Assembly (NCBI GenBank): GCA_037039685.1
Contig: JAWNGF010000012.1
Span: 930,001 to 994,000 of the forward strand
Direction of reading: 5' to 3'
DNA length: 64,000 nt
Source: Ceratobasidium sp. AG-K
Lineage: Eukaryota; Basidiomycota; Agaricomycetes; Cantharellales; Ceratobasidiaceae
The notes beneath the pieces were generated by a model. The model was not told the origin of the DNA. It saw nothing but the letters and a program-made list of their open reading frames with translations, and ran no database searches. Shown piece after piece: positions 1-31,810 of the stretch; positions within the stretch are counted from its first letter, which is position 1, and each line of letters begins with the position of its first letter. Both the position numbers and the translations under genes were made by a program.

Positions 1-2
1 AC

Positions 3-107
3 TCAGTAGAGAACCCCATAGTCTTGGAAGAGGAGGAGGAGGCAATTTGGTCCCAGGGGGACAAGGAAGCATTTGAAGAAATGGTGGGCAACTGTAATCT
101 ACAGTAG
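3..107 (+). CDS. Retrotransposon polyprotein, C-terminal end (partial)
   Basis: The frame beginning at base 3 is open from the window edge and stops at TAG 105-107. It encodes a short acidic tail (a run of five Glu, then WSQGDKEAFEEM). It ends about 40 bases before a purine-rich tract (139-149, with a run of G) and an LTR that starts at 150, which is where a Ty3/gypsy gag-pol reading frame normally ends. No catalytic domain lies inside the window, so the element class rests on position and on the LTR. Some fungal gypsy elements carry an acidic C-terminus like this. The rest of the element would lie to the left of the window. Confidence 0.55.
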   Translation, partial: SVENPIVLEEEEEAIWSQGDKEAFEEMVGNCNLQ

Positions 108-149
108 TTGCCATTCAGGTCCCCCAAATGGGCTCCTAAGGGGGGGTAA

Positions 150-646
150 TGTTGTGACCCAAGGCCCCTCCAATAGACTTGGACTCCTGTTTGCCTCCCT
201 TGTTTCCTCTGTTCTTGCATTCTCCTTTGTGCATGCTTCCTTGGTTCCTTGTTTCCTTTGTTTGTGTGCAGCCTTAGGCTGCTTCCTTTCTCCTTTGTCT
301 TGCAACTTCCTTTCTTGGCAAGTCATGTTCCTTTATAGGACATGACTCATAGAGCTTTCTGATTGGATAGTCTGTATGACTCATTTCTTGGCATGAGTAT
401 GACTCATGTCTTTTCTGAATATATAATGAGGTGACAACAAGCATGGTATCCCCATCTTGTTTTGCCTTGTCATTTCCCAAACAAACAGTCCCTCACTGGG
501 TTTCCCTCAGGGTTACCTTGGATCCTCAGCCCTCAGCACCATTCACAGTCTACAGTTCACAGCCCTTTGGGTGCCAAGTCTCTCTAAGTCTTAACTTGGG
601 CACATACAGTTATAGTTGGCAACCATCACAGAGTTGGGTTGCAACA
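150..646 (+). mobile_element. 3' LTR of a Ty3/gypsy-like retrotransposon
   Basis: The repeat starts TGTTGTGACCC right after the polypurine tract and appears to end at GGTTGCAACA, so its ends carry a matching 5-base inverted repeat (TGTTG/CAACA). It is 497 bases long. A TATA-like box (AATATATAATG, about 418-428) fits the LTR promoter. The 5' LTR is outside the window, so the ends and the target-site duplication cannot be checked. The right end is the less certain one. Confidence 0.6.
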
Positions 647-1553
647 AGTGTAGTATATTGTAGTGACCTGGTAGTGTCACTGTATTAAATGCCCTACTGT
701 GCATCAAGGGTAAAACTATAGACACTACAGACACTACCAGTGTCTGCACAGTGCACTGTATTGTACTGCATTGCATGGGTGGTTTTGCTGATGAACAAAA
801 AGTCAATAAGTATAAAATTGGGGTATTTCAGATGTTTTCATCTTGGCTTTGAAAGACCTTGCAAGCAAGGTAATTCCAGTATGCTTGGCGTTTATCTGAC
901 CCATTTGCATTGATATGTGGATTCAGATGCAGACAACCAGTTTGCAGTGTCAAATTGTCAATTGTCAAATGCTGGGTCAAACTTATGGTGTCCAGCGTCC
1001 CAGCCTGGTATGCTCCAGGGACTCCAGTCTATTCTGAAGCTGACATCTCCACCGCCCTTGCTCTCAACCTGGCAATAAAAAATGTCGCCATCTCTAGCCC
1101 ACCTTGATGGATCCGTAACCCTAACAACATTGCTGATGTTCACTCCTTGATTTTTTTTTCAATTGAGGACTCCAAATGAACCATCACCCGCCAACTGCTC
1201 AAGACCCATCTCTTTGTGTTCGGTTGCCATCCAACTTTGGTAAGTCAACACCAGGCCCAAAGGCCCATGTCAATCAACCCCGAGCGCTTCAAGAGCTCCT
1301 GCCCCTGATAACAATGTTCATATGGATGCCTGAAAACTCGGGTAGTTTGACCTTGGTCGAAATTTAATTCACGGGCTGGCACCCCTTTCAGGCTTTGACC
1401 CTGACTGACAACTCCGACATGTGTCCGGTTTCCCTCCTAGCTTCTTCTGCGTATATGTCTTTCCCTTTGTGTGCGTCTACTGATTGTCATTTGTGCTTCA
1501 GCCGTCTGGACTTGGTCCACGAGTGGTTTGACCTCGTGTTCATGTAGCTCGTT
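647..1553. other. Intergenic, nothing recognised
   Basis: AT-rich sequence between the LTR and the MITE. The only open frames are short and lack family resemblance or convincing splice signals. Confidence 0.5.
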
Positions 1554-1740
1554 CTCAGCAAAAATGTGAAAAGCTACGGGGTGCTCCGTAGCTCGATTTT
1601 GCTCAGGAGCCCTCCTGAGGCTCCTCGAGCACTCCGGAGCGTTGTGATCACGTGCTCCAAAGCGCTCAAGGAGGCTAAGGAGGGCTCCCGAGCAAAACCA
1701 AGCTACGGAGCACCCCGTAGCTTTTCACGTTTTTGCTGAG
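1554..1740. mobile_element. MITE-like palindromic element
   Basis: This 187-base element is almost a perfect inverted repeat. Its ends read CTCAGCAAAAA and, on the other side, TTTTTGCTGAG. The arms continue through an AAGCTACGGGGTGCTCCGTAGC block that is itself palindromic, so the whole can fold into a long hairpin. It has no coding capacity. Size, terminal inverted repeats and lack of genes fit a miniature inverted-repeat transposable element. The flanks (GTT and TTG) show at most a two-base TT duplication, so the superfamily is open. Confidence 0.75.
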
Positions 1741-2097
1741 TTGAAGATGCAGTCAAGATTAAAAATTGAAAAAATGGCCAGCACGTGACAATCTCTCACG
1801 AATCCGTGAACCCCCAGACCCTAACGATGGGGGTTTGCAGCCGAAAGTTTGATTAGGGAGAGGTAAAGTGTCTTGTCACGGGAGCCACTCGAGGCTTATC
1901 CCCATCTAGAAACGCATCCTAGCTTGTGCGTCTCCACAATCGTCGAGGGCGGGTCACCTCAGCATTTGCAAATTGCGATTAGCGCGCAAGAACCCCCGAT
2001 AACGAACGATCACCAGTCGGCGGTTTGATTCCGGCGACCACTCTCGAGTGAAAGGCAGCATCTATTGAGAAAGTATCAAGATATCGATTGCTCAAAT
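1741..2097 (+). promoter_or_regulatory. Presumed upstream region of the microexon kinase gene
   Basis: This 357-base stretch separates the MITE from the proposed start codon at 2098. I see no clear TATA box and no open frame. It is called upstream region only from its position. Confidence 0.3.
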
Positions 2098-5000
2098 ATG
2101 GAAGTCACAGTGAGTTTAATTCGCGTTGCGAGTCCATACCAGGGTCTAGACTGAACCTTTGGCAGTGGGTACGCTTATACACTACTTAACCCCGTGGTGG
2201 GTCTCACGTATGCCCCTTCAGATTGAGAAACAAGACAATGTTAGTACATAGGCTCGTCTGAGGATAAATGGTTGGAAAAATTATATTGACTGCCATTGCG
2301 ACGCAAACACAGAAGGTCTGTAACTCGATTCTGGTTCCGTTTGGGGTACCAATCTTGACGTTTGACGACAACATCGCGCTACGATCCGTTGAGACACCTA
2401 CTGATGCTTGGGTATATGATTCATAGGTGCGTGCGGTCTGTCCAAGTGACGAAATCACTAAAGAACATCCACGCTGCATGACTATGAATTATCTAACTAT
2501 CGCATTTGTGGGAATACAGGAGGTGCGCACTACCAACGCCTTGGTGCAAAGTTGATCTAATTTGTAATTTCAAACAACTCCCATCGTAAACTACGGGACG
2601 ATGTAACTCAAGACGGTGCGTGCGAGCAACCGTTGACCCAACTGGAGCTGAGTGTCACCTTAACCGTTTACAACCCTTGATCGGGCCTATGCCTATTGCT
2701 ATATTACACTAGACTGTACGTGATAACTACAAAAAAGCACCCAATCTAATTATGTTAAACGCTATGGAACGGGTTCACCATTCGATTTTTCTCCGCTCTG
2801 CGGAATGCAGTGGGTTAGTCTTGCCGATCTCCACAGTCCGAGCGGCCGGCTAATTACGATCACCGCCACACGATATTCAGGAGGTATGTCAATTCTACAC
2901 CTGGTCGATTATACAATAGCTGACAAACAGGTTTCATCAACGTTAGTGGGTACGTTCGAGTACGTTGACCACTGGATACCATCATTCACGAGCAAGTAAT
3001 CCATCCATTTATCAACGAATGAAAAGGAGGTGAGCCGCTCCATCTAGAATTAGAATGTTTCGTAAATGAACACAACCGCCTTCCTCGCGCCGGCATAGTA
3101 TGTGAGTACTACCAAATGCATGAATGTTGTTGGTGCCGTCAAATTGTTGACTCATTGATCTTATTACTGCCCAATGGAATTTTAGTATGTAAGTCAGGAT
3201 CGAATAGCTATGATGTAAGCCCTTCCTATTGGCTAATGCAAATGACCTTTATAGCAGGTGCGCTGCGCTCCCTTCGCCGGACAAAGCCTACGTTGACGGG
3301 CCTTACACTACACACATATAAACGTAGATCGTGAGTTGAATTTCAATCAAGTTACACACTCTGTTCTCACTGGCGTTTAACACTCAGTCGGTAAGTAATA
3401 CTAGGAGCGTATTCATACCTGGGTGAACATTGACAAAACAATCTATTGCTTACCACGGATGCCGGCCAATGCATTGCGTTAAGAATGTGCGTATATACTA
3501 CACTCCATCCAAGGCCCCAAGCCGACATCATATTCACTTGGGTTGTTCGACCTTGCGGCTCCAGTCCGTACGTACGGGCCAGACGCTATTCGGCGAGCAC
3601 GCTTTTGATTATCATAATCTCCGCCCGGGTTTGCCGGCGTTTTGGCTTCTTTGAATGCCGTTGGACGACCTCAGTATGTGGGTACATTTCTTTGACAACA
3701 CTGACTCGCGCGATGATCATTCTGACTCATACATGGCCGTGGCTACTGATTCGTCCTTCATCATTTAGGATGTATGTAAAACCTTCGGAAGATTGGGTAC
3801 CCGCTAATGATCGTAATACTCGGATGGGTATTGAAACGCAGCTGAAGAGGCAAGGAACAGTACGTGCAAGTTATATACTGCGTGATAACCGTGCTAACGC
3901 GTGAGATTTATTCCCGGGCATATCTACTGGCATCTTCACCGCGCAACTTTAGGGAGTATGTATGACTAATGTGCCGGGCTGAGTTACGCTAATAAAAGCA
4001 ACACTCCTCCTCGTGTGCCAACTATCGGCGGTGGGCTGATACCCCCGTACGACTTTAGACTGTGCGTACGAGCCATAAATCAAGAATACTCACGTTGACT
4101 AAATTAGCACCTATTTGGACCTGTTAAATGCCGGCCATGGTGATTGCTCGGCGACTTTAGGTTGTACGTAGGTACTTTATACCCGGCGGATTTGATCTAA
4201 CTAAGCGATAACGCTGGCTTGGGCCCTGTGAATGGCCTTTCCCGGGAAATGTAACCTCTAGGCTGTACGCATTCAAGTCATGGATTGGTCATAGATGGTG
4301 GAAGCTAATCAAATCTTTGTCTGAACTGTCGACCCTTTGATTTCGTATGAATCTAGTGGGTGAGTAAGAGCTTTATTTGGGGCAGGTGATATTGATGTTT
4401 ACAACGTTTTTATATAACCGGGAATGTTCGTGACCGATATTGCCAACATGCTCCTTCAGGGTGTACGTACCAGCTACACATCGAATGAATAGGATGTTGA
4501 CAAGGGCATGCCTGCCTACACCTCAATGGCCGATACCGTCGGGCTGAAACCTCCAGTCCGTGCGTATTAGTTGACCGTATTATGGCCGGGATATCTACTA
4601 ATGTATTGCTTGTTCGGATTACCCATCATTATGGCTCGCCTACGCCGACCCTCGATTTAAGATGGTGTGTCTAAGCGACACGCCGGGTGAAGAAAAGCTG
4701 ATAGAGGAAACCCTCCTCTCCACGCACGATCTGCTGCTCGGTGCTGTTGGGCGACTTTAGGGAGTAGGTATTAAGTGAATGCGACACAAAACATTTCTGA
4801 TTTGTTGCAATTTTTATTGAATACTTCGTGACATCCTTAGTGGGTGCGTGCCAATTACCAGTTAGGCAGTGCGAAGCTGGCAAGTCTGATGGACATTGTA
4901 TTATCCCTCCTTTCGGCCCTGCATCTACTCAACTATGGTGTACGCTACAGTTTGTGAGTCCTCCCGCTCTACTCCTTCTGGGCCGTTTTTAATCAAGCCA

Positions 5001-6015
5001 TTATCACTCTGCTCGTAAAGGAGGCTAGTCAATCTTATACGCCTTACCTCTTCCTCTGGCTCACAATCACCTATTTCTCCCTCGTTTAGACAGTACGTCC
5101 TCTCTTCCGAAAGGCTTACCCTGAACTCACATGTGCAATCTTGATGGGTACACAGTTGGTTTGTATAGTTTTGTTGGCCCGAACTCGCAGTTAACATTTA
5201 TCGATCGCTTACGTACTCCGTTTACCTTTCTTCCAGGACGTAAGTAACATGAGTCTGTCAGTTCACAACAAGGCATTCTGCTAATGTGGCCGTGTTATGG
5301 CGAACACATAGGAGGTGAGCCGTTTCGTTACGTGAGCTGTAAGCCCGAGCTAAATTGCTCTCTTTGAGGCCGTACGTATTTTTCGAGTGGTGCTTCATTC
5401 TAACTCATTCTAATATGTTCGTGAACTGTGCACATAGAAAGTGCGTGCTCCTTCCCATGCAGTTTGTTATGTTGTGCTCAAAATCGACTTACTGGCTTTC
5501 TTCGCCCCAGAGCGTATGTTTTATGTGTTGACCTCTAATGCGCTCACTAATCTTGTGCTTATAGGCTGTATGTCTCTTGACAGACTATCCTATCTCGCGC
5601 TCACCTGGTGCCCAACGCTCCGTTCTTTATATCAAGGCCGTAAATTCTTTTTACTCCCTGGGGATAATGGCTCACAGTGTCCAACTAATTCTACGACAAC
5701 AGGTCGTACGTTACGTGATATGCACGGCTAACTTCATGGCGGCTGAACCAGTTACCTCGTGCTATGTAGGAAGTTAGTAGTCGTCAGTCGGTATCCTATG
5801 GATCAAGCTAACCCGTTGCCTATTGGTGCCAAAACTAACCAGCACGTGAGCCACCTAGTGTGCCAACAATTGCGATTACTACTATTTCTCGCTGATAGTA
5901 CCAGAAGAAGAACCCCGATATCACTTTCAGCAAGGTAAGCATACGTAATCTAAAATACACCATCGAAGTAGTCCATGCTCTCTTGGGAGACCCTATGATC
6001 CGCAATACCCGCGGT
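2098..6015 (+). other. Array of about 42 consecutive single-codon exons
   Basis: Again and again a 3' splice signal (YAG) is followed by exactly three bases and a 5' splice signal (GTACGT, GTGCGT, GTGAGT, GTATGT and similar). The three-base exons start at 2166, 2313, 2520, 2613, 2713, 2811, 2881, 2947, 3027, 3099, 3186, 3255, 3328, 3388, 3484, 3565, 3675, 3769, 3861, 3953, 4059, 4161, 4262, 4357, 4460, 4557, 4662, 4761, 4841, 4951, 5090, 5156, 5237, 5312, 5369, 5438, 5511, 5565, 5637, 5703, 5770 and 5843. Longer in-phase exons lie at 2098-2109, 2222-2239 and 5899-5934. Either 2394-2411 or 2427-2435 is used, 3842-3859 is an alternative to 3861, and 5021 (GAG before GCTAGT) is possible. None of the triplets is a stop. 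Most introns are 50-110 bases, with one of 136 if 5021 is unused. Many have a branch-like CTAAC, CTAAT or CTGAC about 20 bases before AG. Several end in the same GCGACTTTAG. Confidence 0.72.
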
Positions 6016-7542
6016 GTACGTTTACCTTCAACACACTAGATATCTTTCCCGTTTGTCTATATGGTAAACATCCCTAACACCTTCTTCCGTCCCGAGCAGG
6101 CGTCTCAGAATGCTCAATATAACAACGTCACTATTACTCATGAAATGGTAGTGTTCCATCTTGGTGATAGTTCACTGTTGTCACTGAACCTGTCCAAGTC
6201 AGCAGCCGAGATCCTCAAACACCTGGGAAGCCATGGTTGTAAAGATGTCACGAACGACCTGAATCTCTCCAAGTCCAGCGAATATCCCATTACGTTTGGC
6301 GGGTTTGGCGATGTATACCGTGGCGCTCTACACGATGGGAGTCGGGTCGCCATAAAGTGCCTCAGGTTGCATCTGGAGCGAACAGACAATGCAAAAAAGG
6401 AACTTAAGGTGGAGTTCCAAGTCCATACGGGTGCTGAACTATTTCAACTCAAATAACAGAGTGCTGCTCGGGAGCTATACGTTTGGTCAAAGTGCAAACA
6501 CCCCAATGTGCTGGGTCTTATTGGAGTGGCGCAGTACCGGAACCAAATTGCCATGGTGTCACCTTGGATGGAATACGGCAACGTGAAGAAATTTATGGGT
6601 TTGGAACTCTCGATCAATCGCTACGAACTGGTATGATTGCAATTAAAAATCAGAGACAAACCTGAGCTTATGTGATAAGTGCGCACAAATATCTGATAGC
6701 GTTGCGTATTTACATCAGGTTGGCGTTGTAAGCTTTTTATTTTTATTGAGGGACATGCTAGATCGCTAATGATCCACTTGGGGTTGTAGGTCCACGGAGA
6801 TATTAAAGGCGTGAGATTACGTGTTGACCACATAGCACCAACCGCTGAGCTTTATCACAGGATAACATCCTCATTTCACACGATCTCACTCCTAAATTAA
6901 CTGACTTCGGGAGTGCGGGACTAAGAGAGTATACCCTTCAGTTTTCGAGAACCACCAGTAAGGCAAACGTATCACTCAACTGGGCGGTGCGTATGTACAC
7001 TTTTGGGAACAAGTTCAATGCCCACAACCGCTTACAGGCTCCAGAAATGCTTGACGAGGATGCAAAACCGACTACCGCAGCCGACGTGTTTTCTCTTGGA
7101 ATGGTACGTCCGTAGTTTAACCATCATCAAAGCTCACATCCGATAAACTACCCCTTCTAGACTATTTTTGTATGCTTTTCGTGTTCTCCTCATATAACAT
7201 CAAATCTCAGTGGTCGTGTAGGAATTAATCACTGGATCAAAGCCCTATGCCAATATGAACGAACACGCTGTCTTAACGCTAGTCATGCGTAATGAGCACC
7301 CCATTAGGCCCGAGGAATTCATACCCTCAAACACTTTGTATGGCCCCCACCTCTGGCTATTGCTCACACGTTGCTGGGCGTGTGACCCCCAAGATCGCCC
7401 AAGTTCTGTTGGTGTGCGAGACGAGGTTGGTTATTGCCTTCCCGTCTCAGTAAGCGTAACACTTACTCTGAATTCACAGATACGCGCCGTTATCCGGGAG
7501 AAGGAGATGGAAAATAGGCAGGTTGGGGATGTGGGAGTGTAG
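2098..7542 (+). CDS. Protein kinase with an N-terminal array of single-codon exons
   Basis: The kinase part is solid. Exons 6460-6630, 6680-6727, 6790-6810, 6861-6986, 7038-7103, 7161-7169, 7222-7425 and 7480-7542 (stop TAG) join in phase behind a first kinase exon ending at 6408. It has the glycine loop GGFGDVY (from 6298), the Lys of VAIK (6355), HGDIKG plus DN (6790-6866), DFG (6903) and APE (7038), so all residues for activity are present. Tyrosine-kinase-like HGDIKG kinases are common in Agaricomycetes. The kinase exon is open from 6040 (or spliced in at 6100 from a donor at 6016). Upstream, ATG 2098 starts MEVT and a GTGAGT donor at 2110. About 45 phase-0 exons then follow, nearly all 3 bases long (see the array entry). 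They would add roughly 65-75 residues ahead of the kinase. Exon lengths in the kinase domain match both domains of the neighbouring minus-strand gene. Confidence 0.75.
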
Positions 7543-8309
7543 TAATCATATGAATCGAGGGTATAGATTAGGTGGACAAATACGTATTGGGACTGGCACT
7601 GTTTAAAGGGACCTATCCATTTGTCTCATCTCTTACCTTGTTTTCAAGCCAGGAATGAGTTAGTTTATCGATTTCGTTGTGCAGCAATCTGAGCCTATTC
7701 AGCCCGTTATCACAAGGCCTATGTGTAAAGCCTCGGGTCGGTGACACGCGGATCCCGACATGAAATTTGTGCGTCGTATCGTATATGCGCAAGTGAGCAA
7801 CATGTGGAGATGAGTAAGAATTCCTCGACCATTGACGCGTGAGGGATCTCAAGTGTTTTTGAGATTTTCGAGAATAGGATTAAAATAAAAACGCGCCCAG
7901 GAGAGTTGCACATGTCAGGTCAGACACCTGGGGGCCACGTGTGAGGGTTGCGTGTGAGGCGTCGCACGCTAGTGGCTGTAACAGTATGCATAATGTAATG
8001 GTTAGCTAACCTCTATGCACGCAAGTGTCGAAGGCATTGCGTGTGGCCCGTCCCATTTGTGTATTTGCGCATGTATGCACTTGGGTGTCTTTGTCGGCCT
8101 TGATCCCCCCTTTTTTTTGTCCCTCTGCCTTCGATACAAGCTACAAATCTATTATGTTACAGCTTGTTACATCTCCACGGCGACTCTGGTGAGCCCAAGC
8201 TGAGCCAGTTAGTCCAGGCTAAGTAGATTGGCAGGCATGTTAGCAGGTGCTTGGGCTGCGCTAACCAGGGTCGAAGAGGCTGTGGAGCAGTAGAGAGGGC
8301 AAGGGTGTC
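7543..8309. other. Intergenic between two convergent kinase genes
   Basis: This is 3' flank for both neighbours. I found no open frame with family resemblance and no RNA gene. Confidence 0.5.
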
Positions 8310-11300
8310 CTATAGCAGGTGAAGGACGGGAGAGGGAGGAGGAGGACCCTGAGGACCCTGAGGACCTTCTACTCCAGCAGCAGGGGCAATCGGTGCAACA
8401 GGAGCAACAGGGGCAACAGGAATAAGAACAACAGGGGCTACAGGGGTGGCAGGGGCTACGGGAAAGGCAGGAGGACTATGATGGGGGAATGGCTCCACCG
8501 CGAGGCTACGCCGCCATATTGTATTTTCCTCCGTAACATGCTTTATCTGTACAATTGTTTGTCAGAGCACGATATGGTTGAATAAATGCCAAATAACCTT
8601 GTCCTTTAGGGTAATGGCCCCAGGGCGGTCGCGGGGTTGATGCGACCAGCAGCTTTTGAGCAAGGACCAAAAGAGATTGGCGTGCGAAACACTCATTGGG
8701 AGATGCTTCTCCGGCCGTGCAGGAAGCTCGTGAAATACTATTTTTTTCGCAATGGCAATCTCGCGCATGCCAAAGTATGGTATGAGCCCCGTTATAACTT
8801 CCTGTCAAAGATGTTAGACACAACTACCTGTGCAGTGGGTGCGTAGCAAACATACAAGCATTGTCTGGAGCACGAGGATTGGGGTAAGCTTCAGCTTATG
8901 TTATCTGACTGCCAAACGTACCATTCCAAGCGAGTATATATCTGCTTGGTCGGTAGGGCCGCTCTCCTGTCCGTAGACCTCAGGAGCCTAAATTTAGGGT
9001 GAGTTGAATCGCAAACGGACTTGTGGTTCAGATTGCAGACAGTACGCACCACCCAATTGAGCGACAGTCCAGCTGCCTCACTAGCCTCCGAGTTTCGAGT
9101 AATGCGATTTGCATTTCCAAAGTCAGCCAAGCGTGGGATAAGGTCACTCGAGAACATTATGTTATCCTAGGATAGTTTTAGTCACTAGCTTGCGATAACA
9201 AAATTGAACCTACGCCTTTGAGGTCCCCATGAGCCTAGATGTGTAAGCAACGTAAGTGCTAAATGCACAATAAAATTGGGGCACCCCACTTACTATCTTG
9301 ATTTTATGAAGGTATGTTACCCCTTCAATAATTTGGGCACACTGGAGGAACTAGTTCGGGACCAAATCCATACAGAATATACTCACATACCAAATCATAA
9401 CGATCAGCCTCAGGGTGTAAGGAGAGAAAGTTTCGCAAGCTCCCATACTCCATCCACGGTGACACAGTTGCGATCCGATCTTGATGCTTGGCTACCCCAA
9501 CCAACTTGAGAATGTTAGGGTGGTTGCACCTCGACCATAGTCGTAGCTCCCGATCGGCGCGCTACAAGCGAGATCACCACTGCCACTTCGATTCAAGTCA
9601 CGGTCATCATCACCTTCAGCTGTTTCCCAACCATCTCATTCGATTCCATACGCAGCTTGATGCACTTCACGGCGACTCGGCCACCGTCATGCAGGGCTCC
9701 GTGGTACACGTCTCCGGAGCCACCAGTCCTCACCGGGTGCTCACTTAACTTGGCTTTATCAAGTTTGAGAGTCACGTCATTGCAGCGCCCTTCAATTCTC
9801 TTGATAATTCCATCAATCGACTAAGGCGTTGGTACTGCCGTCAGCAGAGAATCCTGCACGGTAGTGGTGCTCACAGGTACATTTTCAATACCCGAAATCG
9901 TCTCAGGGCTTGGTTCGGTTGTTTGGGCTTCTAGTTCAGCTTGGGCTTGCAAATCATCGGATTCTACATCCGGCCCGACGCCCCTCTGATTCCTCTGGTT
10001 AGAAATGATTTCCCGTAACTGTTGAGTGAATCAGATATCGTATCACCCTGAGCCTATCACAAACCAACCTTGTCCCACACTTGAACAGCGTTTGGCCTAT
10101 CTTCAGGCCTGTATGCCCAACAACTGGTGAGGAGGGACCACAGGCGATTGGCGAGTTTGTTTTCCAAGGGCAGGAATCTTTTTGGTCTCCTGGGGTAAGT
10201 ATTGTTGAAGACACGCATCACCACAGCTGACTCATGCAAACCATCATATGGCACTGATCCAGTAATGGTCTCCTGTCAAACGTGTGAGTCCTACCCTCAG
10301 GAGGGCTGGTGCATGAATAACATACGAGCATTGTCTAAGGTAGGTCCTCGTGATTAGAGAGAAGGTCACGAAAAATCACAAGCGTACCATCCCGAGAGAG
10401 TAAATATCCCCCTCAAAAGTCTGAATTTTACTATCTTCATCGAGCATCTCGGGGGCCTAGAACAATGTGCATGACAGCCAATAGAACCGCAGGAGCCACT
10501 GTACGCACCGCCCACCTGACACTGGCACCAGATTGCCCCTTGATGGTAGTGGTGTGCCCAAAATAAGCCAGATGCGGTGCAAATTTGTCTGACACAAGAA
10601 TATTATCCTAATTTTAGTCAGCCGGTATTCCTTCTTCATAAACCTGGTAAGACCTTACACCCTTGATGTCTCCGTGAGCCTGGATGCTCAAATTTTATAA
10701 GTGTATCGCATTCCAGTCAATTCGCTTACCATACCCATGCCGTGGATATAATCAACAGCCTCCGCAACCTGTGTACACTGGAGCAGCGCATTGAGAGCTA
10801 ATCCCTGTTGACTGGCCCTACGTACCAGGCTGTACCGATCGGCTCGGGGTTGCGAAGAAAGAAACTCCCGGAGGCTCCCGTAGCTCATCTGCGGCGTTAC
10901 AAGTGCAACTTCACCTTGAACTTGGACGACTCCAAGCAAACTCAGCAGGTTAGGGTGTTTGCACTTCGTCCACGCACAGACTTCGCGCGCGATACCCTAT
11001 AGGTCGATTCATACATGTTTGGTCCTACTCCGAGTGCCTTTTACCTTGAGATGTTCCTCTATGCTTGGATTATCTAATAATTCCTGGTTTAGCTCGATGT
11101 TCCTGATGCTGACTCGGCTCCCGTTACGGAGGGTACGGTGACGCGCGTTCCCCGAGTTCCAAGTCAAGGCGGAAGAACTGTCGGTATGAGATGTATCCAA
11201 TTGTGTGCTAATATCCACACATCCGTGGTTTACAAGAAATCTAATTATTTCCGCAATAGGCTATCACAGTTCTACCAGTTGTACTTAGTGAGCAAATCAA

Positions 11301-11314
11301 AACCCACTTACCAT
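8310..11314 (-). CDS. Tandem pseudokinase-kinase protein (JAK-like order)
   Basis: Nineteen exons join in phase from ATG 11314 to the stop at 8310 (687 aa): 11312-11314, 11045-11260, 10826-10996, 10730-10777, 10659-10679, 10509-10607, 10388-10456, 10326-10334, 10069-10272, 9875-10018, 9614-9820, 9391-9561, 9294-9341, 9214-9234, 9050-9166, 8922-8987, 8856-8864, 8598-8801, 8310-8546. Domain 1 (about residues 40-280) keeps HGDIKG/DN and APE. It lacks a proper glycine loop, has Arg for the VAIK Lys (VSIR), and has Tyr for the DFG Asp (AYFG), so it should be a pseudokinase. Domain 2 (about 345-610) has GGSGDVY, VAVK, HGDLKG/DN, DFG and APE and looks active. The linker exon (9875-10018) reads open from the end of domain 1 into domain 2, which argues for one gene. 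The C-terminus is a Pro/Ala/Val-rich tail. Both domains share the intron pattern of the kinase at 6.0-7.5 kb. Confidence 0.8.
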
Positions 11315-11689
11315 CCTGCGCCTTAGATGGATTGAAGCGTCCTCGCTTCTGGTGGGCTGAACGCGGCCCCCGGTGCCTGAGATTAAGTCGTGCCCGCGGG
11401 CCTAGGGATGAGAACGTAGATCAGCAATCCCGAGAATAAGTGGATAGTCAGGACGTGATGCAGGAATAACCATCCTATGGTGCATGTCAAAAAGTCGGAC
11501 GTACACGTTGCATGATTATTGTATTGGTGTTTCTGACTAGAACGGTTGTGTGTTAGGTTAAACTGTCGTTAGAGCTAGTGGTCGGTCAACTGAAGTGTGG
11601 GCCTAGGGCCTCGGGAAATGGGGGTACAACTTCAGAACACCACGTGTGAAACGCGAGTTAAAGTGGTATCAGCTTGCAATCCAAGTCAT

Positions 11690-11906
11690 AAGCCACCAGC
11701 CAGAAATGGAATCTTGGGCGGCTATTGGCTTGGGCGCAAACACCCAACTCACCGTGGCGTTGCTACCCAATTTGGCCAACCTGACATGCTACGATCATGA
11801 AGATCATTACTATAACCTGATTGGTTCACTGTCGGACGATGTGATGACACGGAAAGAGGCAGAGAAGTACCTTTTGGAGTTGATGGATGACCTTCAAACC
11901 CCCTGA
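11690..11906 (+). pseudogene. DUF4246 gene fragment
   Basis: The end of this frame contains NLIGSLSDDVMTRKEAEKY, nearly identical to the C-terminal region of the three DUF4246 genes further right, but it stops shortly after LELMDD. The residues upstream do not match the family and no other DUF4246 exon lies near. It is on the strand opposite to the intact copies. I read it as a truncated relic; the left limit is approximate. Confidence 0.6.
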
Positions 11907-12084
11907 TGCGCCTACATACGCACATCTTTGCACTTGCATTGTATTTCCATGAGCGAAGGGTGAGGTAAATGTGGGAAAGGAGTTTTCTGAACCAGATAGG
12001 GGGTCACAGGTCCGAATCCGGAACATGTTGTGTATATGCCTTGGTAGGCAACCCCTGGAAGTGCGGAGGGACGACGGGTCAACA

Positions 12085-14291: not shown

Positions 14292-17200
14292 TCATATCCG
14301 AGTCAAGTTGCATGCAGGCACGTAGCATTCCACCCATGACTCCCCAATGTGAGCGCCTTCAGTATCAAGCTCAACCGTCCCACTGCGTGCGATCAAGAAT
14401 ACATCTTGTGGCCGTAAAAGGATGCTCTGTAGGTCGGCCGGAATCCAGAGGAGTAAACGTTGTTGGTCGTCGCGCACCCATCCGTTCTTATCAAGCGTCC
14501 AGGGCCTATTGACCACTGGGTAGGACGGCTCATGAGAGCCGAGCTGGTTTAAAGACAAGCTTTGTGTCAGAAATGCATCGTTTGACTATGGGAAGAGGTG
14601 CATCCTACCTGGCGCGTCGCCGTTCCCACGTTCCACATGTGGGTCGTGGCGTCGATGGAGCCAGAGACGATGTGCATGCCGTCGGGTGAAAATGCAACCG
14701 AGTTAACCGAGTCGGCATGCCCCTCCAGTGGCCCCATCACTAGCTCGCCAGTTATCGCATCCCACACCCGAATTGTGTTGTCGTTGGAGCCAGAGGCGAT
14801 GCGCATGCCATCAGGCGAGAATGCAACCGAGCAAACCGCTTCGGTGTGCCCGACTAGTGGACCTATCACTTGCTCACCACTCGTTGCATCCCATAGTCGG
14901 ACTGTGTTATCCCCAGAGCCAGAGGCGATGCACCTGCCGTCGGGTGAGAATGCAACAGAGAAAACCACGCCCGTATGTCCCTGGAGCGGGTCCATTACTT
15001 GGTTTCTGCTTCTTACATCCCACAAATAGACAGAACAATCATTGGAGCCAGAGGCGATGCACATGCTGTTGGGTGAAAATGCGAGTGAGCACACCACCTC
15101 GTCCCCATGGATGGAGCCTCCTTCGTGCTCCAAACTGGAGCCGGTGAGAGAGAGCATAGACAGGGGGAAGTCAAGCTGCCCCTCGAATTGGTCCATCACT
15201 GGATTATCGCTCATCACCTCCCAAGAGGGAATCTCAACATCATCGGATTCCGGCAGGTTGTGTATACTGGCCGGCGAGCGGGCGGGGCTGCCCTCCTTGG
15301 ATAGTATCGTCACCAGCTCGCCGCTCGTTGCGTCCCACGCCCGGATGGTGTTGTCCCAACTGCCAGAGACGATGTGCATACCGTCGGGCGAAAATGTAAC
15401 CGAGCTGACCTCTGCAGTATGCCCGACGAGTGGATTTATCGGTTGCTCGCCGCTCATTGCATCCCATACCCGGACTGTTCTGTCATCTGCGCCAGAGACG
15501 ATGCGTGTGCCATCGGGCGAGAATGAAACCGAGAAAACCCTTCCGGTATGTCCCTCGAGTGGGTCCACCATTAGCTCGCCGCTAGTCGCATCCCATATGC
15601 AGATTGAGCCGTCACCAGACCCGGTGGCAATCCGCCTACCATCGGGCGAGAACGCAACTGAGTTCACAGAGGCGACGTGCGCCTTGAGGGGGGGCATCGT
15701 TGGCTGAACGCCTGTCGCATCCCAGACGCGGATTATCTTGTCTCCAGAGCCAGAGACAATGCGCATGCCGTCGGGCGAGAATGTAACCGAGTTGACCCAG
15801 TCGGCAGGTCCCACAAGTGGGCCCATCATTTGATTGCCGGTTGCCGTATCCCAGACGCGGATTTCGTTGTCCATAGAGCCAGAAACAATGCGCATGCCAT
15901 CAGGCGAGAATGCGACTGATGTGATCGTGTTGATATGCCCCTCGAACGGGCCCACTGCTAGATTGCCACTTGTTGCATCCCATACGCGGACCGTCATATC
16001 AGCAGAGCCAGAGACTACCTGCGTTCCGTCGGGCGAGAATGCAACTGAGAAAACGGCGTCGTCGTGCCCCTCGAGTGGGCTCATAATTGACTTGCCATCT
16101 GTTGCGTCCCACATGCGGATGGTGCTGTCTTCCGAGCCGGAGGCGACAAGCTTGCCGTCGGACGAGAACGCAACTGAGTATACTGTACTGGTGTGCCCCT
16201 CGAGCGGACCCACCACTGGCTCTCCGCTCGTTGCGTCCCACATGTGGATGGTCGTGTCCTCTGAACCGGAGACGATCCGTCCGGCTTTGGGTGAGAATGA
16301 AACCGAGCGGACCGCACCTGTGTGTCCCTGGAGTAAGCCCATCACCGGTTGGCCGTTAGTTGCATCCCAGACGCAGATGGTATTATCGTCCGAGCCAGAG
16401 ACGATGCGCGTGCCGTCGGGCGAGAATGCAACCGAGAGGACCTCACTGGTGTGCCCCTCGAGTGGGTCCATCATTAGCTTGCCGCTCGTTGCATCCCATA
16501 TGCAGATTTTCATGTCCGCGCAGCCAGAGACGATGTGCATGCCGTTGGGAGAAATCGCGACCGCCCTGACCTTCCCACCCGCTAAAAACGCGCTAAGTAA
16601 TGCCAGCTGACGCCGGCCCATTCCAGGCCCCTTAATAGTAGCAAGCCGACTAGTCCGCCCTAGATAGTGGTCCGCCAGTGGACTGGTGCTTGGCCAAGAT
16701 GCGAGCATTGACACGTACAGGTGAGGAGTGCTTTGGCAGATTTCACCGGTGGCAAATTTCACTGCGAATCGCCATGCGTCGTGAATCATCTCTTTGAGAT
16801 TTTGGGAGATTCCTGATCCCTACAAGTTGGTTGGCCACATTGGTATCCTCTAATATCAAGGAGCGGCTTGTTTGACTTACCTGGGACCATACTTGGGCTG
16901 TCGCTAACATCGAAGCGCTTGCGCTAATTTTGTTCTTCAAATTTAGTAACTCCATCCAGAGCAACAGCCGCTCTGACAGGAATGCTAGCAGCTGTTCTGG
17001 ACGCCTGTCTGAATAGCCCCCGAGCTCCAGATGCACAGCCCAGTAGAAGCACGCATATGAGAGGTCCGGCGGAATCGCCTGTCTAACCCTCTCTTCAAAG
17101 TCAGGCACTTGATTGTCAAAGACGAACGATGACTTTAGCCCACAGACGTTGAACTGTAACTGGTTGTTCTTGATTCGGTCGAAGCAAAGCTCCGTTAATA

Positions 17201-19740
17201 GTCCGTGATGCTTTTGCTTCTGGCACCCGTGCACCCCGGACCGCTCCGGGTCCAGCATATAGTCAGGAAATGATGCGTGGAGCGTGGTAACGAGGTCGTC
17301 GTTGCCTGAGAGCTGAAGCACCGACCTCAAAGGCTCCACAGCGGCCTTTACCCATTCACGGTCCTCAAGTCCAAGCAGTTTAGCAAGGGCGGTCACCGTG
17401 AGCGGCTCTTGCGCACAGACCACAGTATCAAGCACAAGTTTCATATTGGTCCGCTCGTCGGGGTCCAGGTCCGAGTTTCCGAATGCAGAGGAGAGGATGG
17501 TACTGTAACATAAATTCATTGTCTCTTTCATGTTTGGTGGTCCTGAGCCGGCCGCGTTGAGCACAGTTTCGACGCGTTTCCGCTGGAGGAATGCGGATGG
17601 TGTGGATTTGATGTATCGAATAATGGTTGCGGCATAGATGAACAGGACACCAGCATGCTTGACCAAGGTTGCGAGCTCCGCGTTAGAAATAAGCGACGTG
17701 AGATCCTTGAGCTCAACCTGTAGATAAATTTTGATATCCTCCTTGACAATCGAGTCTTCTAGCTGATGCAAGATCAATTGTTGCCCCATGTATCCTATCT
17801 TCTGGCGGATCTGGGGCTCTGGTCGACTTGAGACAAAAATCTTTAGGGGTAAGTCTAATGCACTTTTTGCAAGGATCTCGAGAAGTTGTCCAACGCCCTG
17901 GCCGTCTTCGCATTCGTCCAATGCATCGATTACCACGACAAAATTCGGTGGTAGAGTATCCGAGACCTCGCGCAATGGGCCAATGATCAAGCCCTCCAGT
18001 TGATTCGAAAGTGACTTGGTTTGCAGGTCCGGATCTCTCTGTAAAGCTTGGAAAATCCTGCGATAGAGGGGATAGGAGAAGCGAGCAAGCTGGTAGGCAA
18101 TGGTAGGTAGGATAAGGTTAACGTTACGACACTCGGGCAAGAGACGGGTGCAGAAGAAGCTAGCCCCAAGCTCGTGCGACTTGTCAAGCATCGCACATAG
18201 GCTGGTGGCAATCGTGGTTTTGCCAGTACCGGCCATGCCGTTCAACCAGTACATGTTTCCCTGTTTTTCGTCGTGCCTCCATAAATCCAACGTCGAAAGA
18301 ACCTGCTTGCGGGTCGCCGGGGTACATTCCCGTCGACTAATCTGGGCGGCTTGTGCTGAGTTGTAGCATGCGGACATCGATGGCAACAGCGACTTCAGCC
18401 AGGTTTCCTGTTATCACACCCGGTATCAATAGTTGAGCGAGCAAAATAGTACCAACTTACGCTTCTTTGTTCCTCTGCGATCTGCAACATGTTTACCTGC
18501 GCATTCAACTTCATAACATTGAGTTTAAGAATTTTGTTCGTAGTATAAGTCGGTCTTACTTTTAGTCGCTCAAGGTATCGCTGGATTTGTTGATAGCAAT
18601 TCATTATGTCGACCAGTGCCTGGTCCGCCTGCTGTAACCGTCTTCCCTTCGATAGCTCTTGCTTTTCGGAAATCTGGATGAGCTCTGCCTGAATAACCCT
18701 ACACAGGCGGTGAGCTCAGGCTGGTCTATGCGTCCAGCACGAGGGGGAAAATACCCACATGCAAAGGCTATTCATCCCTTCGGTCATTGTCGACGGGAGA
18801 TCTTTGCCAGAAATATGCGTGCTCAACTCTTTGAACAGCCCTTCAATATCTTTTTTGAGCTTTGCGTAGCCATGTCCTGCCTCGCTTTCGGCCTGTTAAA
18901 TAAAACCGGATGAGGCATTGCATGAATAACCCTGCAGAAACCAACCTCGAAAGCACCAATGACTTCGCCAAAGTCATTCATGAGTCGTTTGAGCGGTGCG
19001 AAGCCTTCGGGAATGCCGCTTAAGGCCTGTTGGAGACTGCTGAGATACTTCCAACCGGTGCCTATATTGGTCGGTGCGCTTTTGAGTGGTGTGGGGACAA
19101 GACTGGATTTTGGTTCAAATTCAGGGAGGCGAAGAAGTGACTGGAAAGATGGATTCTCATCGGGCGAAGGGACTCGAAGTTCGGGCGGTGACAATGCAGG
19201 CCGAGCGGGGACATCCCCGCCCCCAGTTAGGTGCTCAGACGAAGAGATGGGAGCTAGAGCAGCGGATTGTAACAGATATGCGAACTGAGTAGTATCATCT
19301 TGAGTTTTAACAGATGAATCGAGTGGGGGATTGGCATTTGCTTGGGTCATCTGAGTGGCTGGTGTCGTAGCAATGTCCTGATTAGGAATGCTGGCCTTAT
19401 CCGTCCAATTGAACGCATCGCTAGTACTAGGAGATGTGACGGAGATTTCCGGTAACCTGACAATAGGCTGGGTAGGCTGATCACCAACTTCAACCCGAGG
19501 CGGCGATATGGGCTGAATACCAGGGGAGATAGGCCGAGTATTGGTTGGGGGAGTGGGGGTGGGAGGGGAAGTCCGAATACCTCCGACGAGCGATGTGGGC
19601 ACAGGGTGAGTGTTCGGCGAAGTGACTGATACGTTGGGCAAGGATAGAGTTGTGACTGTAGCACTCGAGGTTCTAAAAAATTGGCTAGTCTTTTCCTTCA
19701 CCTTGCCTTTAATCCGTTTGAATTCCTTTCCAATCGACAT
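14292..19740 (-). CDS. NACHT-WD40 NLR-like protein (STAND NTPase)
   Basis: Seven exons join in phase (1701 aa): 18946-19740, 18759-18892, 18560-18698, 18461-18508, 16881-18407, 14609-16819, 14292-14543. Residues 1-265 start with a short basic helix (MSIGKEFKRIKGK) and are then Pro/Ser/Thr-rich and probably disordered. About 266-370 form a helical region. The NACHT NTPase follows, with Walker A GMAGTGKTT near 430 and Walker B VVIDALDEC near 530. Residues 882-1618 carry 14 WD repeats, and an 83-residue tail with a WTLDKNGWVRDD motif closes the protein. In fungi such proteins act as NLR-like sensors in heterokaryon incompatibility and possibly in defence: the NACHT domain oligomerises and the repeats recognise ligands. 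The N-terminal effector domain is not a type I recognise. A second gene of the same architecture starts at 62034. Confidence 0.9.
14609..16819 (-). repeat. Coding array of 14 near-identical WD40 repeats
   Basis: Each unit of about 126-129 bases encodes a GH...VxSVAFSPDG...GSxDxTIRxWD block. There are ten units, then a spacer of about 75 residues (around 15030-15330), then four more, enough for two seven-bladed propellers. Neighbouring units stay very similar at the DNA level, for instance in the GFSPDG-like block that reads GGGCGAGAATGC on the plus strand. This suggests recent duplication or repeat-to-repeat conversion. Confidence 0.85.
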
Positions 19741-20795: not shown

Positions 20796-22734
20796 TCAAT
20801 GCTCGCAGAGTGAGAACGGAGCATTGAACCATTCCTCATCGTTCTTGGCTACGAACGCCGTCCGTTCGTCCATTAGTTCCAGTCGGTATTTTTCCGCCTC
20901 TTCACGCGTCATCACATCGTGCGACAGTGCGCCAATAAGGTTGATGATCTCAGGCGCAAACCTAGCATTCAGCACTGGGTTCGAATCCATTCCGGCGGTG
21001 CGCCAGTCCTTTTGCTGTGGGGGCACAATCTTGGTCGACGGTCGGCGCACAGCGGGGTCGACAAGAAAGAGGGCGACGATCTTGCGGTGACCGGGCCTGG
21101 ACTTGTCGATGAGCTCGAACGGGGAGACGCGGTGTTGGTAGGTGTTAGGGAACGCAATACACCTGTTCTGGGATGTGATTATTGAGCCTAATTCATTTAC
21201 ACACGGCTCATCTCTGAAAGTATAAGCGATGAGCCAGGATTCTACACATGTGCGAGCCTACTACGGACCTATCCATGCCCCAAGTAAGGATACACCCTCG
21301 GCTATCGTTTTGTTCGTAGTTCTCGGGACCGGCCACCGCAGTACGGAATGCGAGTCGGCTCTCGGTGATGTTCTCTTCGTCGTAGTAATAGATTCCAGAT
21401 ACAACGATCGCTTCGTTCTTCATGCCCTCGATGTGCCACGAGCCACCTGCGTAGGTCGGCTTTTCAGGTGTCTGCAAGGATGAGGTTTATTACAAGCTGG
21501 GCACCGTCGTTCGGGTTGAATACTCACCAAATGTATATTCGCAAGCTTGACAATCACTTGTATAACCTTCCCTCCCAGCGTGTACTGAATTTCCCGTGTC
21601 TCCAGGCTTCCCAACTGGTAACCTTCGTCGGGAACAGAGGGTAGGACGATGGGTCGCCCTTCCTCCCATTCCCGATACTTTGTATCGAATAGATCCACAT
21701 CTGAGAATTTGTCGTAGTCGGGTTCATCCACATAATTATCTTCGTCGTAGTGGTAATTGTTGTCCGTGCGTTCCGGGACGGCCCCGTTCGACGGTATACT
21801 ATCCGTCAAGACCCGTTCAAAGAGTGGGATGTACGCTGAGATGAGATCTTCGATCGTCTTGTGCAGCTCGGCATGCTCGACGGGATGTAGGTTGTTGATG
21901 TAGCCGTCGCTCTTGACCGACTTGCCATCCTCGGATACCTTGAAGTCGGTTGGCAACCATTGGAACTTATCAGAGACGTAATATGTGTTTCGATCACGCC
22001 AGGAAGACTTCGCCTTCTCCTCGGTAGGGGGCCTTAGACGAGCTTCGAGTTTCGAGGCATCCCGGTCGTCCGAGTCCTCGGGATACGACAGAGTTCGACC
22101 ATACACGATGGGGTAAAGCGAGGGATGGACCAAGTCGAGCACCTGTCCATTCGACCGTGGGTGCCAGTCCTTCTCGGCCTCAGGAACGTTTTCGAGCTTG
22201 GATACGCCAGCAATAAGGCGTTCCCTCAGCTCCGAAGGAATGAGCGTGTCAGACTGCCAGATTTTATCATGGCACGCCACCTAGGCATCGCAAAACCCAT
22301 TAGTAACATCCCAGAACCGAATCGGTGAAACCTGCGTACTTCGGCTCCAGTCTCTTCGTCGCGCAAGTTCGCATACCCGCCAAGCTCCTCCAACACATAG
22401 TCCACGTGCGATTCTTTCATCTGTTCGGCCTGAGCTAGTGCCTCTGCTCTCCACTTGGTGCGAATCTCGGGGTCGCGGAACTTGGTCCACCAGGAGGGTT
22501 TGCGGCGAATCTCGGCTGAAAGACGCGTCATTTCGAGCTCGACCAACTAAAACAAGTTAGCTTCAAGAACGTATCAAAGTATAGACTTACGGGCTTCGCT
22601 GGAGGGCCTCCTTTGAATCCATAACCCAAGTTGAACCCAAACGCATCAGGAAGAGGTTCATTATAGCTAGAAGAAGTCGTAGGCTTGGTTTTTCCCGCGC
22701 CGCCACGGCGAGCTGCAGCCGATGTTCGAGCCAT
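20796..22734 (-). CDS. DUF4246 protein, copy 1
   Basis: Five exons join in phase (574 aa): 22591-22734, 22340-22546, 21528-22280, 21269-21471, 20796-21213. The exon sizes 207, 203 and 418 are shared exactly with the two copies to the right. The protein matches the DUF4246 family, which is large in fungi and thought to have an Fe(II)/2-oxoglutarate oxygenase-like fold. Candidate metal ligands are the His and Glu of WHIEGMKNE and the His of YQHRVSPFEL. The substrate is unknown. The start was chosen because MARTSA precedes the conserved PLPDAFG motif. The copy differs from the others in its N-terminus and in the acidic loop of exon 3. It appears intact. Confidence 0.88.
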
Positions 22735-29936: not shown

Positions 29937-31810
29937 TCAGTGTTCGCAAAGCGAAAATGGAGTCATAAACCACTCTTGGTTATTCTCCGTCACAAACGCT
30001 GTTCGCTCATCCATCAGCTCCAGCCGGTACTTCTCAGCCTCTTCACGCGTCATCACATCGTCCGACAGGGACCCAATGAGATTGATGATCTCAGGCGCGA
30101 ACCTGGCACTGAGCACAGGGTTCGATTCTATTCCAGCTGTGCGCCAATTCTGTTGCTGAGGGGGGACAATCTTGGTCGAAGGTCGGTGAACGGCTGGATC
30201 GACGAGGAAGAGGGCGACGATCTTGCGGTGGCCTGGCTTGGACTTGTCGACGAGCTCGAATGGGGAGACACGATGTTGGTAGGTATTGGGGAATGCGATG
30301 CACCTGTTCTGAGACGTGACGACCGAGCCGAGCTCGTTTACGCATGGATCTTCCCTAAAAGTCCAAGGGGTCAGGGGACGGGCGAATACAAGCAAGTTGA
30401 CCACTTACCCATCCATACCCCATGTCAAGACACATCCTCGATTATCGTTCTGCTCGTACATCTCTGGGCCGTTCACAGCGGTACGGAATGCGAGTCGACT
30501 CTCGGTGATGTTCTCTGCGTCATAGTAGTATATACCCGATACGGCGATCGCCTCGTTCTTCATGCCTTCGACATGCCAAGAACCACCAGAATAGCTTGGC
30601 TTCTCGGGCGTCTGGCACAAACCGTTAATTTTTGAGCTCGATGCGGAACTACCTTCAGATACTCACCAAATGGATATTTGCGAGCTTGACAATCACCTGG
30701 ATAGTCGTTCCACCTAGCGTATACTTGATGTCGCGTCTCTCTCGACTCCCAAGCTGGTAGCCCTGTTCTGGGACGGCTGGGAAAATAATCTGTCGGCCCT
30801 TCTCCCACTCGGCGTACTTCTGGTATTCTTCATCATCATCTGGGAAAGGAGGTCTAGGGGGATAGTTGCTCTCGTCATAGGAGTATTCGTTATTCGTTCG
30901 TTCCGGGATGACGTCGTTCGATGGTATGCTATCAGTCAATGCCCGTTCGAACAGCGGGATGTACGCAGCGATCAGGTCTTCCGCCGTCTTGTGCAGCTCG
31001 GCATGTTCGATAGGATGAAGGTTGTTGATATACCCATCGCTCTTGACCGACTTGCCATCCTCAGACACTTTGAAGTCGGTCGGCAACCACTGGAACTTGT
31101 CGGAGATGTAGTACGTGGATTGTTGACCCCATGAATATGTTGGGAGCACCTCAGAAGGGGGCTTCAGACGCGCCTCGAGTTTCGAGGGATCTCGGCCATC
31201 CGAGCCTTCGGGATACGATAAAGTTCGGCCATAGACAATAGGATAGAGTGAGGGATGAACCAAGTCCAGTACCTGCCCGTTCGAGCGCGGGTGCCAGTCC
31301 TTTTCGGCTTCAGGAATATTTTCCAGTTTGGAGGCACCAGTGATAAGGCGCTTCCGTAGGTCATCTGGGATTAGTCTGTCAGACTGCCAGATTTTGTCGT
31401 AGCACGACACCTAATCGTAGTAACCATTAGTAAACGATGGTGCCCACTGGAATCCGAGAGTACCTCGGCCCCTGTTTCCTCATCGCGGAGGTTCGCATAC
31501 CCATCAAGCTCCTTGAGCACATAGTCCACATGCGCCTCTGTCATCTGTTCAGCTTGAGCCAGTGCTTCAGCGCGCCACTTTGCGAGGATCTCGGGGTCGC
31601 GAAACTTGGTCCACCAGGTGGGTTTACGACGTAACTCGGCTGAAAGACGCGTCATTTCGAGTTCGACGAGCTAAAACACGAAATCAGATCTACCCGACGC
31701 AAAAACGCTGGTAATGCACCTACAGGTTTGGCGGCAACCCCAGCTTCGTACCCATCGTTGTGGCCAAACGCGTCAGGAAGGGGTCGGTTGTAGCCAGACG
31801 GAGAGGTCAT
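29937..31810 (-). CDS. DUF4246 protein, copy 2
   Basis: Exons 31724-31810, 31464-31670, 30667-31410, 30409-30611 and 29937-30354 join in phase (552 aa). Apart from exon 1 and the length of exon 3 (744), the exon sizes equal those of copy 1. WHVEGMKNE and YQHRVSPFEL carry the likely metal-binding residues. The ATG at 31810 (MTSPSGYN) was preferred because copy 3 starts at the same place; an in-frame ATG at 31822 would add four residues. It has the closest resemblance to copy 3, consistent with a local tandem duplication. The function is unknown beyond the family. Confidence 0.88.

Follow-up and report, generated by a model that had tools for sequence, protein, structure and literature searches.

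The stretch of Ceratobasidium sp. AG-K DNA analyzed here (contig JAWNGF010000012.1, positions 930,001 to 994,000; 64,000 nt, referred to below as the window) carries a protein kinase gene whose 5' part is predicted to consist almost entirely of exons three bases long. Our reading of this gene and its paralogues, which is drawn from sequence and to which we assign a probability of about 0.8, is that 41 to 61 three-base segments per gene are spliced in turn, so that an N-terminal domain, including a variable core acting as a changeable recognition surface, would be assembled residue by residue. The initial annotation of the window had described a single run of such exons in front of a kinase. 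Going beyond that description, we find the array, with its hypervariable core, in a whole family of genes and not as a lone oddity.

The signature of the array is the pattern YAG-N(L)-GTRNGY. On the plus strand of positions 2098-6110, we counted 31 sites with L = 3 and 0 to 3 sites at each other L between 0 and 30; the minus strand of the same segment had two sites with L = 3, and the window from 6111 on had 0.35 (plus strand) and 0.07 (minus strand) such sites per 4 kb. Over the whole window and both strands, 40 sites with L = 3 were found, compared to 13.1 ± 3.5 in 100 dinucleotide shuffles (largest value, 23). The reported recurrence of YAG, three bases, and a donor is thus present and specific to length three. 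The chance rate proposed along with it (∼1 per 4 kb, for the AG form) exceeded the background that we measured, though the latter applies to the stricter YAG form.

Splice models combining donor, branch, and acceptor scores, with exon lengths of 0 to 90 nt and no rule on frame or stops, were built for eight loci (the window gene, L026, L029, L030, L033, L034, L035, and L036), the first and last exons being set by homology. Under a flat length prior, 169/259 internal exons of the eight loci were exactly 3 nt long. For the window alone, this prior yielded 27 exons, 14 of them of 3 nt and many of the others off frame; since it swallowed introns into long exons, lengths were re-estimated across several loci, after which 353/359 internal exons of the eight loci had 3 nt. 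The re-estimated fit overlooked 18-nt exons and gave the window gene a 67-nt first exon. In the final model, the length prior favors 3, 18, and 0 nt and the first exon is fixed. For the window gene, it comprises a 12-nt exon 1, 41 three-base exons (about 42 had been claimed), two 18-nt exons, and one zero-length AG/GT site, with zero stops and with every exon length a multiple of three, in line with the earlier statement that all introns are in phase 0 and no triplet is a stop. The chain that starts at ATG 2098 was also correctly described as running into an intact kinase, which it reaches in frame via 5905-5934 and then 6100-6408; the array end given at 6015 falls within the modeled intron 5935-6099. 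Tens of consecutive three-base exons per gene are predicted at all eight loci (41, 53, 42, 42, 61, 41, 48, and 51; 379 in total), and the frame-free best path was in frame at six of them. The parts of the window gene, with their strand, are as follows.

2098..2109, +: exon 1, ATG GAA GTC ACA (MEVT), donor GTGAGT; fixed in the model
2166..2168, +: one-codon exon TGG (W); TGG at the aligned position in 6/6 distinct paralogues
2222..2239, +: 18-nt exon IEKQDN, donor GTTAGT; from the splice model
2313..2949, +: one-codon exons of the 5' framework, AAG 2313, GAG 2520, ACG 2613, ACT 2713, TGG 2811, GAG 2881, TGG 2947 (K-E-T-T-W-E-W); from the splice model, matching T-W-T-W of paralogues
2424..2433, +: zero-length splice site TAG/GTGCGT, junction before 2427; from the splice model
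3027..4953, +: one-codon exons of the variable core; from the splice model, aligning poorly between distant paralogues
variable core, first part, +: GAG 3027, TAT 3099, TAT 3186, CAG 3255, ATC 3328, TCG 3388, AAT 3484
variable core, second part, +: TCC 3565, TAT 3675, GAT 3769, GGA 3953, ACT 4059, GTT 4161, GCT 4262
variable core, third part, +: TGG 4357, GGT 4460, TCC 4557, ATG 4662, GGA 4761, TGG 4841, TTT 4951
3842..3859, +: less certain 18-nt exon LKRQGT; on the model's best path, with no counterpart in the paralogue models
5090..5845, +: one-codon exons of the 3' framework (T-L-D-E-A-K-S-A-A-V-E-H)
3' framework, first half, +: ACA 5090, TTG 5156, GAC 5237, GAG 5312, GCC 5369, AAA 5438
3' framework, second half, +: AGC 5511, GCT 5565, GCC 5637, GTC 5703, GAA 5770, CAC 5843
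5905..5934, +: 30-nt exon KKNPDITFSK, at the end of the array domain
5935..6099, +: modeled intron between the array-closing exon and the kinase exon
6100..6408, +: kinase exon 1 with glycine loop and VAIK lysine; open frame, genome matches
6460..7542, +: remaining kinase exons, 6460-6630, 6680-6727, 6790-6810, 6861-6986, 7038-7103, 7222-7425, and 7480-7542

Paralogue first exons that match the MEVT exon read, by eye, MEIEIV, MEIKIV, MEIELI, or MQVKIH. The IEKQDN exon has counterparts of the same length in L026 (VEKTDY), L029 (AEKETD), L034 (VERKNS), and L036 (VEGKNS); that of L033, VEGANE, was read by eye and is absent from the L033 model. A zero-length AG/GT site was modeled at the corresponding place in 5/8 loci (window 2427, L026 1746, L029 2827, L030 2775, and L036 1250), while in L034 and L035 an AAG/GT seen there by eye was not chosen by the model and in L033 none was modeled. 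Both W columns of the 5' framework are TGG in 6/6 paralogues. In place of the LKRQGT exon, the core could have a one-codon exon, TAC at 3861-3863. The 3' framework aligns to TLD-AKNAALQH in L034, TPDEAKNDAVQD in L026, NLDQAKDRAVKH in L029, and TLDKAMEAAVED in L033, with synonymous changes among the codons; two of its exons have weak splice sites, GCC 5369 (GAG acceptor) and GCC 5637 (AAG acceptor, donor GTAAAT). Counterparts of KKNPDITFSK, again found by eye, are FLRNNPTMTLSE in L034, FLRNNPEEMLSE in L026, and FLEKNKSMEMSE in L029. On the kinase side, the last exon (7480-7542) ends with the stop TAG, and HGDIK..DN and DFG are present; the 48-nt exon 6680-6727 and the end of 6790-6810 were read by eye. 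The assembled protein without exon 6680-6727 matched PK_Tyr_Ser-Thr (PF07714; 3.4e-31) and Pkinase (PF00069; 3.1e-30), and the Lys, HxD, and DFG motifs of the Tyr/Ser-Thr kinase superfamily occur as VAIK, HGDIK, and DFG, which we take to be catalytic motifs. Just upstream of the array gene, at ∼1562-1738 on the plus strand, a long imperfect inverted repeat was noticed by eye, which resembles a small palindromic element.

The triplets behave in their evolution like codons of spliced exons rather than like spacers, as is supported by several comparisons. For six distinct genes (window, L026, L029, L033, L034, and L036), the triplets of each gene were joined end to end and the genes aligned in pairs; the resulting peptides beat 500/500 shuffles in 15/15 pairs (z 3.5-10.9). 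Control triplets from four intronic offsets, with 100 shuffles for each, reached z values of at most 2.7 in 14/15 pairs, with the exception of L034/L036 (z 10.7-14.2), a closely related pair with introns that remain alignable. One orthologous intron, that after TWTW, gave z values of 1.1-3.4 in comparisons between four genes, and some intron similarity therefore persists. No stops were found at the triplets (0/287), compared to 3-55/287 at eight other offsets, and over the eight models the count of stop triplets was 0/377. Among single-base codon differences, 69/142 were synonymous (0.49, with 0.22 expected): in conserved columns the codon varies as GAC/GAT for D, GCC/GCT/GCG for A, TTG/CTG/CTT for L, and AAA/AAG for K, and W columns are TGG throughout. 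That short splice-like motifs merely coincide by chance, a view that appeals to the shortness of the motif and to its low-rate occurrence elsewhere in the window, is contradicted by this codon conservation, by the length specificity, and by the family-wide recurrence, and can be practically dismissed.

The segments between the triplets also look like introns. In an earlier version of the window model, with 44 introns of 51-136 nt, a branch-like YTRAY was present in 38/44 of them, compared to 20.3 ± 3.0 after shuffling (0/300 shuffles reached 38), and other loci were alike (L029, 38/47; L033, 55/65; L026, 43/56). Among 156 introns of the window gene, L029, and L033, the 5-mers with the strongest enrichment were GCTGA, TTGAC, and CTGAT, which look like branch sites. 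A narrower test, for CTRAY 10-58 nt before the AG, showed a weaker excess (17/44 compared to 8.2 ± 2.5), and CTAAC alone was not significantly enriched in the window introns (6/44 compared to 3.0, with 27/300 shuffles reaching it), nor in L026. The introns thus bear predicted donor, branch-like, and acceptor signals. Together with the alignable peptides, the synonymous changes, and the zero stops, these signals support the proposal already made for the window that the kinase N terminus would be built residue by residue.

The kinase exon was used to search the genome of the same organism (53.6 Mb on 17 contigs, containing the window), giving 183 candidates and 150 scored places, the window itself included. 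Array status was checked in 20 fetched kinase regions and 7 further pieces, most of the 150 places lying outside this count. Arrays of three-base exons were present in 12/20 regions (L021, L025-L030, and L032-L036); the other 8/20 (L022-L024, L031, and L037-L040) had merely 0-4 scattered sites each. Of the further pieces, L042 and L043 contain 5' halves, attributed by us to the L025 and L028 arrays, respectively, and L041 and L044-L047 are without array. At least 12 array kinase genes are therefore known besides that of the window, 13 in all. L021 (C12:658465-668400) is a near-identical duplicate of window positions ∼500-9000, located on the same contig at a distance of ∼270 kb, and further near-identical pairs are L029/L030 and L034/L035. 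Where the species was shown, database relatives of the kinase came from Rhizoctonia solani or Ceratobasidium among the 120 matches listed of 197 found. In alignments, the family shares an N-terminal design that runs from MEIxIVWVE...G...TWTW...Y through a variable core to TLDxAKNAAVQ[HD] and an FLRNNPxxTLSE exon; the poorly aligning core sits between the 5' and 3' framework, and both framework and core consist mostly of one-codon exons. A second kinase-like fragment lies within the window at 9614-9856 on the minus strand (C12:939614-939856), facing the array kinase, and its frame contains a stop.

The core of four genes (L027, L034, L035, and L036) is made up of 112-bp units in tandem, each combining one codon with a 109-bp intron; in L026 the tandem unit is 109 bp. 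Diversity within these arrays is concentrated at the codons. Among the 34 units of L027, the codon positions had diversities of 0.66, 0.69, and 0.51, compared to an intron mean of 0.025, and 201 unit pairs had introns with at most one difference over 109 sites, 159/201 of these pairs carrying different codons. The three codon positions rank highest of 112 in L034, L035, and L036, and also come out on top in L027, where the third is tied by 3 intron positions. L026 is less clear, with codon positions ranking 1, 2, and 4 of 109 and 1 intron position at or above (14/16 equal-length units counted; those at 1996 and 2933 were dropped as outside the repeat). These are homogenized repeats with variability at a few coding positions, an hnwd-like pattern (see below). 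The 91 codons of L027, L034, L035, and L036 were TAT (27), CGA (18), GGA (13), GTT (10), CTT (9), GAT (5), GAA (5), AGC (2), ACC (1), and CGG (1). Moreover, the codon is linked to the final bases of the preceding intron, and this link is strong but not strict: in L027 the intron tail TACGAGAATAG precedes TAT in 11/11 units, while TATGACTTTAG stands before GGA (6), GTT (4), CGA (3), CTT (1), and ACC (1), and in L034 and L036 the tail TACGAGATTAG was found before TAT alone (5/5 and 3/3). The link suggests that each unit is a discrete cassette and that copying and shuffling of units have been more frequent than in-place mutation of codons. Between the near-identical duplicates L034 and L035, whose flanks show 0-14 mismatches per 500-bp bin, core codons have been gained, lost, and substituted (41 and 48 three-base exons, respectively). 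Tandem Repeats Finder reported three short repeats in window positions 1-12000, none of them within the array, and the window copy is therefore not of the homogenized type.

Two database proteins bear on the transcripts of such genes. P0009 (contig of 1539 nt) is intron-less, close to L034/L035, and by our reading continuous over at least 5 introns downstream of the array. P0003 (contig of 1707 nt), whose source tag we take to denote an assembly of public reads, is likewise continuous across introns of its nearest locus, L027, and starts with M-N-H-FLDGHPEVTLSE, i.e., three residues ahead of the post-array exon. The final three one-codon exons of the family read [VLM]-[QKER]-[HD], as in V-E-H (window), L-Q-H (L034), and, by eye, V-K-D (L027) and M-R-D (L028). 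The M-N-H of P0003 would fit spliced codons, on a match of three residues only and with the genomic locus of P0003 not found.

Schistosome micro-exon genes have many short symmetric exons and variable products; their exons are mostly longer than one codon, and they encode secreted proteins without a kinase. Schistosome microexons are mentioned in PMC11121469. The initial annotation knew of no gene with tens of consecutive three-base exons, but there is a precedent in the nank (NACHT-ANK) genes of the truffle Tuber melanosporum, NOD-like receptor (NLR) genes in which codon-sized mini-exons number in the tens (Iotti et al. 2012, as cited in PMC3689799, PMC4986451, PMC9815663, and PMC10197012). 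Codon-sized exon arrays are thus already known as an idea from these genes. Both systems have tens of 3-bp exons, form an expanded fungal family, and have a proposed role in sensor diversification. The present genes differ in belonging to a basidiomycete, in encoding a kinase, and in having an N-terminal (5') array, the truffle mini-exons lying in the C-terminal sensor of NACHT-ANK proteins. On the kinase side, framework codons are conserved between paralogues, and one clade has homogenized intron-codon repeats. The truffle case alone turned up in the literature that we searched for codon-sized exon arrays, in Rhizoctonia or elsewhere, and that literature did not contain the present host group, the kinase, the conserved framework, or the intron-homogenized hypervariable units. 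The WD-repeat allorecognition genes hnwd of Podospora anserina likewise contain highly similar, rearranged repeats with few variable positions, but their repeat is coding, whereas here 109 of 112 bases are intron and one codon is coding (PMC2873952, PMC9815663). The arrays may resemble recursive splicing and its zero-nucleotide exons, in that one AG/GT site would be used after another and a modeled zero-length site recurs in several members; unlike there, three coding bases would remain after almost every step, and the introns are short (PMC13149111). Isolated microexons of 1 nt and 3 nt in Arabidopsis APC11 (PMC4674806) and Drosophila homothorax (PMC7392893) indicate that exons this small can be spliced, although they are single, compared to tens in a row here.

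Mechanistically, each intron of ∼50-110 nt would be recognized as a unit, and splicing would be stepwise and in order, since two splice sites 3 nt apart can hardly be bound simultaneously. Each step would leave three bases, i.e., one codon, every triplet would be included in the mRNA, and the zero-length AG/GT site would be the limiting case. The near-identical introns could further be an exchange substrate, in which unequal crossing over or gene conversion would add, remove, or swap residues, leaving the reading frame unbroken. The variable module might then sense something, perhaps self/non-self, and the kinase might relay the signal. Combined, these steps describe a receptor in which recombination between introns inserts, deletes, and reorders single codons from a limited alphabet (TAT, CGA, GGA, GTT, CTT, GAT, GAA, AGC...) and sequential splicing prints them as a hypervariable recognition peptide on a kinase, possibly for self/non-self; we propose this tentatively, at slightly less than even odds. 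Alternatively, one-codon exons might be alternatively spliced, so that one gene yields very many N termini posttranscriptionally. The truffle NACHT-ANK genes have been described in this way (PMC3689799, PMC4986451, PMC9815663, PMC10197012), and the exons of a phase-0 model are all symmetric, any subset of them keeping the frame. The conserved order of framework codons suggests, in contrast, that at least those codons are regularly included; for the core, sequence alone does not separate constitutive from alternative use. We regard alternative splicing as possible but rather doubtful.

Several points weigh against residue-by-residue assembly of a recognition domain. The frame-free model places one off-frame exon each in L033 and L036, where phase-0 alternatives score 1.5 and 1.9 units lower, and neither the codon-difference pairs nor the stop counts are independent, as paralogues and units share ancestry. 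The tail TACGAGATTAG, found before TAT alone in L034 and L036, precedes four codons in L027 (GAT 4, GTT 2, CGG 1, and TAT 1). The N-terminal domain matched no Pfam family confidently (best E, 0.077) and no solved structure in the PDB (best E, 3.2). No transcript or protein spanning the array turned up: with the spliced L034 N terminus (region 1-72) as query, the protein database yielded 5 candidates, all of them above E = 10, and with seven aligned N termini it yielded 1058, all of them above E = 1. The recognition role of the variable core is suggested by analogy only, with hnwd and the truffle NACHT-ANK genes. Finally, P0009 begins inside the exon right after the array, and a downstream start of transcription or translation is therefore possible. 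The array could accordingly be pictured as one long 5' intron or leader that is spliced recursively, with the triplets as untranslated spacers: P0009 and P0003 as called begin at or just before the post-array exon, and several members have a zero-length AG/GT site in the array. Spacers, however, would not avoid stops (0/377), keep their residue order, and change synonymously, and we consider such a leader very improbable.

A further point against the preferred reading is that 3/13 array genes (L025, L028, and L032) are broken by inserted DNA, as judged from split match positions. The insertions amount to ∼7 kb between L025 and L042, ∼16 kb between L028 and L043, and more in L032, for which the near half of the split array was fetched. 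Such interruptions would be expected if the arrays were decaying 5' ends of pseudogenes or spreading intron-like repeats without present function, and the tandem units of one clade do look recently amplified. On the other hand, the kinase motifs of the window gene are intact, aligned codons show a synonymous excess, and a spliced L034-like sequence exists in the protein database, making decay or functionless spread very improbable.

The arrays bear on how small exons can be and on how many of them can be chained before splicing fails, since a single gene appears to contain 41 to 61 exons of codon size, its framework codons being maintained by selection. If residue-by-residue assembly is true, introns would serve as recombination spacers, providing a frame-proof way to vary a protein by single residues. 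As no database protein with the domain was found, standard gene prediction probably overlooks such genes, and the kinases of these fungi may be misread at their N termini. If recognition depends on the variable cores, these would become candidate determinants of Rhizoctonia compatibility groups at the molecular level.

Beyond the kinase gene, an Rfam search of the window returned nothing at gathering scores. About 7 kb past the end of that gene, on the minus strand at 14567-18386, lies a gene or adjacent pair with hnwd-like architecture, consisting of an NLR-like NACHT/NPHP3_N part (16743-18386) and 14 WD40 stretches (14567-16789). Also on the minus strand, three similar-looking open frames were seen at 21420-22280, 30655-31410, and 33770-34813, the last of which was tested and matches DUF4246, and two open frames with a caspase domain (Peptidase_C14) occupy 38555-39685 and 41460-42851.

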